Source: Deltaproteobacteria bacterium (GTDB taxonomy: Bacteria > Bdellovibrionota_B > Oligoflexia > Oligoflexales > Bog-1112). Taken from it: a DNA stretch of 34,271 bases. The DNA is taken from the NCBI GenBank assembly GCA_003136475.1, contig PLEQ01000232.1:1-34271 (forward strand), given 5' to 3'. How positions within the stretch are numbered: position 1 is the first letter of the stretch; each line of letters starts with the position of its first letter. The notes below the pieces were generated by a model. It saw only the letters and a list, made by a program, of their open reading frames with translations, did not search any database and was not told the origin of the DNA. The translations under genes were made by a program, and so were the position numbers. This document shows, one piece after another, positions 6,298 through 34,271 of the stretch.

Positions 6298-6990
6298 TTA
6301 ATTGTTCTCCACTTTTATGAAAGTATACCCATTTACTTGTTTGTATTTTCCATTAGTTACTGAGGAAATATTACCTTTGCTTATTTTTAATCTTCGAGAG
6401 GCGTCACCTATAGAGTTAAAACTAATACTGAGTTCAGGACAAAATATTTTTATTTTTCTTTTTTCATTACAATTTTTAAATATAGTTTTTGAAGCTTCAG
6501 ATGGGAATTTACCAAAACTATGGTGTTTTTGTCCCTTTACAGATTCTGAATGCTTCGTTCTAGATTCTAAGGATCTTTTTTTGCCCTTATTAGCCATAGA
6601 TATTTTAAGTTTAGATTCCGAAGTGTGTTTTTTACCAAACCAGTAGGATTTTTCTCTTTTTTTAGATTCGGACATCTTCCGTTTTGTCTCTTCGGAAACT
6701 ACGTGATTGTTTCCTCCTGTATGCAAATTATATCCATTAGGAGACAAGGTATTATGGTATTCTATAAAATACTCTTCTGCATTATTGAGATCCTGAATAT
6801 TATTGTAGATACCAATAATCTCTTTATAAAAAGAATTTATGCCATTCTTTTTAATGGCATTATAAATATAAATTGAATGTCTTTTATCTTGGCAATGCTC
6901 TTTCCACCTAATCTCAAAATCTCTTATAGTTTGTCCTATATAGGATTTTCCGCTGATCTTATCGGTTATTTTATAAATAACGCCAAACAT
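6298..6990 (-). CDS. GIY-YIG homing endonuclease with NUMOD-type repeats (free-standing)
   Basis: GVIYKITDKISGKSYIGQT, EEYFIEYHNTLSPNGYNLHTGG, SEETKRKMSES, C-terminal RRLKISKGNISSVTNGKYKQVNGYTF. Clearly related to the 546..1268 product. Confidence 0.92.
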   Translation of the reverse strand: MFGVIYKITDKISGKSYIGQTIRDFEIRWKEHCQDKRHSIYIYNAIKKNGINSFYKEIIGIYNNIQDLNNAEEYFIEYHNTLSPNGYNLHTGGNNHVVSEETKRKMSESKKREKSYWFGKKHTSESKLKISMANKGKKRSLESRTKHSESVKGQKHHSFGKFPSEASKTIFKNCNEKRKIKIFCPELSISFNSIGDASRRLKISKGNISSVTNGKYKQVNGYTFIKVENN

Positions 6991-12062: not shown

Positions 12063-12782
12063 GTGCACATACAACATAATAATTTAATAGATCAAAAATT
12101 TGGAAAATTAACAGTTATAAAAAAAGATAGTCCAAATAAAGATGGCAAAGCTGTATGGTTGTGTAAATGTGAATGTGGAACCATAAAAAGATTTAGATTA
12201 AGGAGCCTTCTTAGTGGCGACACTAAAAGTTGTTTGCGCGGCTCATGTCGTCCGAATTTTACCGATCTTACGCAAAAACGATTTGGAAAATTAGTTGTAT
12301 TGGCGCTATCTCATAAAAAAGGAGAGGCTACTACTGCCCACTGGGAATGTAAGTGCGATTGTGGGATCTTAGTCACAGTAGCATCTGGTAGTTTAGTTAG
12401 CGGTGGCACTAAATCCTGTGGATGTATGAAAAGAGACAGTCAATATGAAACAATAAAAAATGATGCATATTCAAATCATCGAAAGGGCGCCACGGCACGG
12501 GGCATAGTAACTCATCTATCTAAGAAGGAATATATCGATATAGCTTCAATGAATTGTTATTATTGCGGACGAATAGATATTAAAAAGAACAGACTTACAA
12601 AAGTTACCATTAATTTAAATGGTATTGATAGAAAAAACAATGAATCTTATTATGAAATAGATAATTCCATACCTTGTTGTAAATTATGCAATATGATGAA
12701 AAGAAAAATACCTCATGATGATTTTATCACAATTATAAGATATATATATGGGCATACTGAAAATATAAACTTAGATAAGTGA
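12063..12782 (+). CDS. HNH endonuclease with two N-terminal CxCxCG...KSCxxxxC/KSCGC zinc-type repeats
   Basis: Repeats FGKLTVIKKDSPNKDGKAVWLCKCECGTIKRF...KSC and FGKLVVLALSHKKGEATTAHWECKCDCG...KSCGC, then CYYCG...NGIDRKNNESYYEIDNSIPCCKLCNMMK (HNH-type core). GTG start. Confidence 0.85.
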   Translation: MHIQHNNLIDQKFGKLTVIKKDSPNKDGKAVWLCKCECGTIKRFRLRSLLSGDTKSCLRGSCRPNFTDLTQKRFGKLVVLALSHKKGEATTAHWECKCDCGILVTVASGSLVSGGTKSCGCMKRDSQYETIKNDAYSNHRKGATARGIVTHLSKKEYIDIASMNCYYCGRIDIKKNRLTKVTINLNGIDRKNNESYYEIDNSIPCCKLCNMMKRKIPHDDFITIIRYIYGHTENINLDK

Positions 12783-31880: not shown

Positions 31881-32072
31881 ATGGCAAAAAGTCTCAAAAA
31901 GAATCATAAAAATAAAACAAAATCAAAGTCTAAGGAGATCCGGTACTTAGAGAAGCTTATCAAATATAGTACGCAATGTATAGATGGTAAATCTCCAGAA
32001 TTAGATTCCCTTTTCAGACAACAAGCTTACCGTCTACAAGAAGAGATTAATAAACTGGTTAAAAATCAATGA
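31881..32072 (+). CDS. small basic hypothetical protein
   Basis: 63 aa, Lys-rich N-terminus; first gene after the predicted promoter; ATGA overlap with the next gene. Confidence 0.6.
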   Translation: MAKSLKKNHKNKTKSKSKEIRYLEKLIKYSTQCIDGKSPELDSLFRQQAYRLQEEINKLVKNQ

Positions 32073-32254
32073 GTTATATAAAAGAATATTTAGATTCATT
32101 TTTTATAATTATATCTCGTATATCAATGGTATTATTGGGAATTTCCGCCTATACAGGATCTACCTTAGCCGTATTTGCAATATACTTATCCTGTGTTTTT
32201 GCTATTGCTAGGCCCATTGCTCTTTTTATCAACAAAATGGAGAAAAAATCTTGA
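32069..32254 (+). CDS. small membrane protein, two predicted TM helices (holin-like topology possible)
   Basis: FFIIISRISMVLLGISAY and TLAVFAIYLSCVFAIARPIALFI with a basic C-terminus; ATGA and TTGA overlaps with its neighbours. Confidence 0.6.
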   Translation: MSYIKEYLDSFFIIISRISMVLLGISAYTGSTLAVFAIYLSCVFAIARPIALFINKMEKKS

Positions 32255-32736
32255 AAAAACTCATAGTTCTATTTTTATTTTTATCTAGTTATGCTATCGC
32301 TGATGAAGCCTTTGTTGGTTATGGTCTTGGCATCCTAAGAGGTGCAGATACTTTCTTGGGTCAAACTAAGTATCTAGATTTAGGGTACAGAGAGTTCATG
32401 TGGGATGGTCTTTATTGGCAAACCAAACTCGGTGGCATCGGGGAAGGATCTCCAGATTCTACCAGAAGTGGCGGAGCGTTCCTTTCTACAGGGATGGGAC
32501 TAGAAGTCGATCTTCATCCAATTGAATTGCGTGGAGGAGGTGCCATAGCTGGAATTACCACTCCGGATAGTCAACTAGGTGGATATTTTCAGTTCAATGA
32601 AGATATGTCTCTAGGTCTTCGTGACAAAAAAGGAGATGGTATTGCTCTACAATACAATCATATTAGTTGTGCATCTTTCTGCAATCCCAACTTAGGTCGT
32701 GACTTCGTCATTTTGGAATTAAGCCAGAAATGGTGA
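32251..32736 (+). CDS. secreted outer-membrane beta-barrel, PagL-like (lipid A 3-O-deacylase / acyloxyacyl hydrolase-like)
   Basis: Signal peptide MKKLIVLFLFLSSYAIADEA; alternating beta-barrel pattern; LQYNHISCASFCNPNLGRDF matches the PagL-type HxS active-site region with an acidic residue 12 after Ser; C-terminal aromatic (SQKW). TTG start. Confidence 0.55.
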   Translation: MKKLIVLFLFLSSYAIADEAFVGYGLGILRGADTFLGQTKYLDLGYREFMWDGLYWQTKLGGIGEGSPDSTRSGGAFLSTGMGLEVDLHPIELRGGGAIAGITTPDSQLGGYFQFNEDMSLGLRDKKGDGIALQYNHISCASFCNPNLGRDFVILELSQKW

Positions 32737-32739
32737 TAT

Positions 32740-33000
32740 ATGAAAGAAAATAAGACTACGGTGGACGAAGAGCGTAAGAAAATTAGAAAAATACTAAAAA
32801 ACACATATCCTGGATGTAAAACCTACATCCGGGCCCAAGACGACAGTATTTGGACTGTCCGTGTTATTCATGAAAAGTTCGCGAACCAGGGTGTACATAC
32901 GAGTATCACCGAATTAGTAGATTTACTTACGCCACATGTAGAAAGTTGTATGGTGGTGGAGCCCATCTGCCAAGCAACTTGGGATAGTAGGAGATGGTAA
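32740..33000 (+). CDS. hypothetical small protein
   Basis: 86-aa ORF, co-directional, tightly spaced. Confidence 0.55.
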   Translation: MKENKTTVDEERKKIRKILKNTYPGCKTYIRAQDDSIWTVRVIHEKFANQGVHTSITELVDLLTPHVESCMVVEPICQATWDSRRW

Positions 33001-33613: not shown

Positions 33614-34228
33614 ATGAATCCGACAGAATACGAAAAAAATGTTTTAATTACAGAATCTAATGATTTTTCAGCAATTAAAGGACGTATTGATGATCGAATG
33701 ATTCGATTACTACATGCGGGACTGGGATTAAGTTCTGAATTGGCAGAACTTACTGATGCCTATGCTAGTCCAAAAAATGTCAATATCGATTGGGTAAATA
33801 TAGCTGAAGAGAGTGCGGATTTATTGTGGTACTGTGCTGTTGCAATTAACGCTCTGGGATTTAATCATGACGAAGTATCTTCTCTTGAATCTGAAGCAAG
33901 TGAGCCTCTAGTTCAAAAACATTCCACTCTTTGTCTCAAGGCAGCTCTTCTAGCTGCCGTATGTGCTACTGGCGAATACAATGATTTGCTTAAAAAGCAT
34001 TTGTTTTATGGTCGAGAACTAAATGTAGAAAAAATGAAGAGGGTATTACAAGCACTGTGTTTGGCCGTTTCTCGACTATGTTTTATCAGTGGAACAACCA
34101 TCGGTGAGGCCCGGCAAACCAATATAAACAAACTCAAGGCCCGTTATGGAGAAAAATTTACTGAAGCCGCTGCTTTGAATCGGGATCTTGAAACGGAACG
34201 TAAAATTCTAGAGGATGGTGTAAAATGA
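33614..34228 (+). CDS. MazG-like nucleotide pyrophosphohydrolase
   Basis: LHAGLGLSSELAELTDAYA...WVNIAEESADLLWYCAVAINALG...NINKLKARYGEKFTEAAALNRDLETERKILE: MazG-like EExxD helix and RYxEKF/RDLxxER signature. AAGGAG SD upstream. Confidence 0.8.
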   Translation: MNPTEYEKNVLITESNDFSAIKGRIDDRMIRLLHAGLGLSSELAELTDAYASPKNVNIDWVNIAEESADLLWYCAVAINALGFNHDEVSSLESEASEPLVQKHSTLCLKAALLAAVCATGEYNDLLKKHLFYGRELNVEKMKRVLQALCLAVSRLCFISGTTIGEARQTNINKLKARYGEKFTEAAALNRDLETERKILEDGVK

Positions 34229-34271
34229 AATATTTAATCGTACTTGTCATTTTTTGTTTTAGTGGATGCGC
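34225..34271 (+). CDS. lipoprotein, N-terminal fragment (truncated by window edge)
   Basis: ATGA overlap with the MazG-like gene; MKYLIVLVIFCFSGCA, signal peptide with SGC lipobox. Not in the ORF track. Confidence 0.6.
   Translation, partial: MKYLIVLVIFCFSGC

Follow-up and report, generated by a model that had tools for sequence, protein, structure and literature searches.

A phage-borne PagL-family protein, putatively a lipid A 3-O-deacylase, on a contig distantly related to Myxococcus phage Mx1

A 34,271-nucleotide contig (PLEQ01000232.1) of very probable phage origin was found to carry a gene, at positions 32251-32736 of the plus strand, for a 161-aa putative outer-membrane protein predicted to belong to the PagL family and to act as a lipid A 3-O-deacylase. 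The best explanation for this gene, to which we assign a probability of roughly two in three, is that a phage-borne PagL would deacylate the lipid A of the infected cell. This reading is carried by a profile match to the PagL family, by the position of the putative catalytic residues, and by the phage genes that surround the open reading frame (ORF). The alternatives weighed below are a structural role in the outer membrane, a role in lysis, and a bacterial origin of the gene.

PagL family membership and the putative catalytic residues

The ORF list and the translation agreed with the length and coordinates first given for the ORF. It starts at 32251 with a TTG, which shares bases with the TGA stop codon of the ORF before it and has a GGAG upstream, and its own stop codon lies at 32734-32736. 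A Sec signal peptide was predicted over residues 1-17 (32251-32301, plus strand), where KK, a hydrophobic core, and a cleavage site between AIA and DE could be read by eye, and hydropathy indicated that this is the only hydrophobic stretch in the protein. The C-terminal residue is Trp, and thus both the export signal and the terminal aromatic residue of the original prediction were found in the sequence. The beta-barrel-like alternation that it also described is not telling by itself: averaged over the mature protein, it was matched by 31% of shuffles and is therefore not above chance. The case for PagL is made by the Pfam match, and alternation does not carry it.

Searched against Pfam, the protein gave one match, to PF09411 (PagL), with an E-value of 6.8e-10 and a score of 39.6 bits over residues 42-158, where the curated gathering cut-off is 23 bits. 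The mature form likewise scored over the cut-off (E 5.2e-10), the match was absent from one reversed and four shuffled versions of the protein, and NCBIfam yielded no match. The score is modest compared with the 64 bits (E 2.1e-17) of L004, a chromosomal PagL encoded near rpsI in a genome of the same family. Pairwise similarity to single PagL sequences was insignificant, and homology rests on profiles: phmmer against the PDB retrieved 2erv, the PagL of Pseudomonas aeruginosa, as its sole match at an insignificant E-value of 2.8, and a profile of the phage protein and two cellular PagL proteins of one related genome, from which 2erv was left out, retrieved 2erv alone at 2.8e-8. The latter match is not wholly independent, because L004 as a lone query finds 2erv unaided at 1.9e-6. 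AlphaFold predictions from the single sequence had mean pLDDT values of 33.3 for the full protein and 32.4 for the mature form, a confidence too low to speak for or against an 8-stranded barrel. With a Pfam score over the gathering threshold, blank controls, and His, Ser and Asp aligned with the catalytic residues of PagL, the family assignment proposed earlier was upheld, and judged from its sequence the protein is almost certainly a PagL family member.

The phmmer alignment placed H137, S139 and D151 opposite residues 126 (His), 128 (Ser) and 140 (Glu) of 2erv, which we take to be the catalytic residues of P. aeruginosa PagL, and structural work on that enzyme (Rutten and colleagues, 2006) reportedly assigned catalysis to a His, a Ser and a Glu. 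The putative catalytic His and Ser stand in an H-I-S motif (32659-32667, plus strand; H137 at 32659-32661, S139 at 32665-32667), and D151, in the place of the catalytic Glu140, follows 12 residues after the Ser (32701-32703, plus strand), just as had been noticed from the letters. The His and Ser columns were seen again in the alignment of the three-member profile, and both residues are needed in the PagL of Salmonella (PMC4958258). The cellular L004 also has an Asp 12 residues after its Ser, so the phage protein is not alone in having Asp in place of Glu. L004 thus resembles it in the PF09411 match, the H-x-S motif and the Asp at +12, and differs in its cellular location and in sequence, the two being about 25% identical in alignment. 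With P. aeruginosa PagL the phage protein shares profile-level homology, size, the His-x-Ser motif and an acidic residue 12 positions later, but it is virus-borne and has Asp for Glu140 and Cys for Asn129.

This last difference bears on function. The three cellular PagL proteins compared all have Asn directly after the catalytic Ser, whereas the phage protein has Cys140 there (32668-32670, plus strand) and a second Cys four residues beyond. The change lowers confidence in the activity of the phage protein, not in its family membership, and deacylase activity is therefore likely but not assured; on the residues present, we consider that the protein is probably an active enzyme. The two Cys residues, the first replacing Asn beside the catalytic Ser, and the modest PF09411 score would also suit a protein with the PagL fold whose activity is lost or altered and which has a structural role in the outer membrane, for example in masking receptors as other phage surface proteins do. 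We regard this as unlikely, given that the His, the Ser and the acidic residue have all been kept, which would be needless in a purely structural protein.

The gene run and its phage context

The PagL gene is one of a series of short, closely packed plus-strand genes that overlap or abut one another. The run begins with a 63-aa basic protein (31881-32072, plus strand), for which no family was found in Pfam or PHROG, followed by a 61-aa hydrophobic protein (32069-32254, plus strand) that hydropathy suggests probably has two membrane helices, and that had no match in Pfam or PHROG and none to holins. Based on the 4-base overlap of the two genes, this small membrane protein is probably translationally coupled to PagL. 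Behind PagL are an 86-aa protein with weak similarity to LPD29, below the Pfam cut-off (32740-33000, plus strand), and a phage MazG-like pyrophosphatase (33614-34228, plus strand; PHROG 229, E 3.1e-28) with matches in 319 phage records.

The overlap with a two-helix membrane protein, together with a gene for an SLT transglycosylase on the contig at 11620-12051, raises the possibility of a role in lysis, in which deacylation of lipid A would weaken the outer membrane late in infection in concert with a holin-like protein and the transglycosylase. Several observations make this less likely still than a structural role: the run includes the MazG-like gene, which is typical of nucleotide metabolism and not of lysis, the SLT gene is 20 kb from PagL, the two-helix protein does not match holins, and expression of PagL in Salmonella elicited no envelope stress response (PMC4958258).

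The window examined here is this entire contig, one of 520 in a bacterial bin of 4.0 Mb. Its minus strand carries baseplate and tail genes, including a baseplate protein of 879 aa that shares 29.5% identity with its counterpart in Myxococcus phage Mx1 and a 2110-aa J-like wedge protein, and the baseplate, J-like and tail genes match those of Mx1 in like order. These genes, their order, and the MazG-like phage gene support the earlier view that PagL is phage-encoded, and we hold the phage origin of the contig to be close to certain. The source appears to be a large phage distantly related to Mx1; PF09411 was looked for in Mx1 itself and was absent. Searches with Rfam and for tRNAs gave no match. 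It is very improbable that the PagL gene is bacterial and the contig a piece of chromosome or a chimera: although binning placed the contig in a bacterial genome, and two PagL genes occur on the chromosome of a bacterium from the same family, no cellular housekeeping gene was recognized over the 34 kb, PagL sits between tail genes and the MazG-like phage gene, and other phage contigs related to this one are present in the bin.

Three contigs of the bin (C316, C145 and C111) indicate that at least two further Mx1-like phages were binned with this genome; these sister contigs end short of the syntenic spot for PagL. The window also encodes a second envelope-directed phage protein (24718-25257, plus strand), with a lipoprotein signal, LLSC, followed by a HELTH metallopeptidase motif, and a homologue of it (38%) is present on C316. 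Directly after the MazG-like gene is the start of a further lipoprotein (34225-34271, plus strand; MKYLIVLVIFCFSGC), cut by the end of the contig. The MazG-like protein has 204 aa and its phage matches cover about 126 aa in two pieces, suggesting an internal insertion. Three ORFs among the tail genes (546-1268 and 6298-6990 on the minus strand, 12063-12782 on the plus strand) look by eye like two GIY-YIG and one HNH homing endonuclease.

Distribution of PagL among phages and bacteria

Searches by tblastn with the phage protein covered 50,697 phage and 72,556 plasmid records and found no relative, and a fragment of 2erv or L004 as query found nothing in the phage records. Scanning the genome contigs of one collection with the phage protein returned no relative, and a search with it of 59 related genomes yielded only one weak match (E 0.007), to a larger protein. 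PagL occurs once in the bin. Elsewhere, PagL was present in one of 53 related genomes, as two chromosomal copies, one near rpsI and the other near a LolA-like gene (neighbors identified by eye).

PHROG 15758, a viral or prophage family whose listed function is unknown, gives a match to P. aeruginosa PagL with an E-value of 1.7e-52 and, by this similarity, is evidently a PagL family; PagL has therefore been seen before in viral or prophage sequence. The phage PagL described here did not match PHROG 15758, and among the papers covered by a literature search none dealt with phage-encoded PagL. LpxC was detected in the bin and in 13 of 14 sampled relatives, so lipid A synthesis is expected in a host of that lineage; binning with a bacterial genome does not prove the host of the phage.

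A possible role in the infected cell

If the phage PagL behaves as its family suggests, it would be exported by Sec after infection and would form a small barrel in the outer membrane, where a triad of Ser139, His137 and Asp151 would remove the 3-O-linked acyl chain from the host cell's lipid A. The likeliest gain for the phage would be an outer leaflet remodeled during infection, and in the least certain step, later-arriving phages might adsorb less or more vesicles might be shed. As to purpose, we infer that the protein could serve to block superinfection, to promote vesiculation, or to aid lysis. In Salmonella, active PagL raises the output of outer-membrane vesicles without an envelope stress response (PMC4958258), which makes vesiculation or a change of the surface a more natural effect than rupture of the membrane. 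We propose tentatively, at somewhat less than even odds, that a large tailed phage edits the lipid A of its host during infection with its own PagL, so as to keep out competing phages or cause vesicles to be released.

Known phage effects on the cell surface include alteration of the O-antigen, as by the gtr genes of P22, and the addition of outer-membrane proteins. Lom of phage lambda, an outer-membrane moron and barrel protein of the Ail/Lom family, would be comparable in that both are phage genes for an outer-membrane barrel, a resemblance of role only; Lom is not known to have a lipid A deacylase motif. An enzyme with which a phage acts on lipid A directly would open another route for altering the outer membrane, and would offer a ready-made test of whether lipid A acylation influences phage adsorption, vesicle release or lysis.
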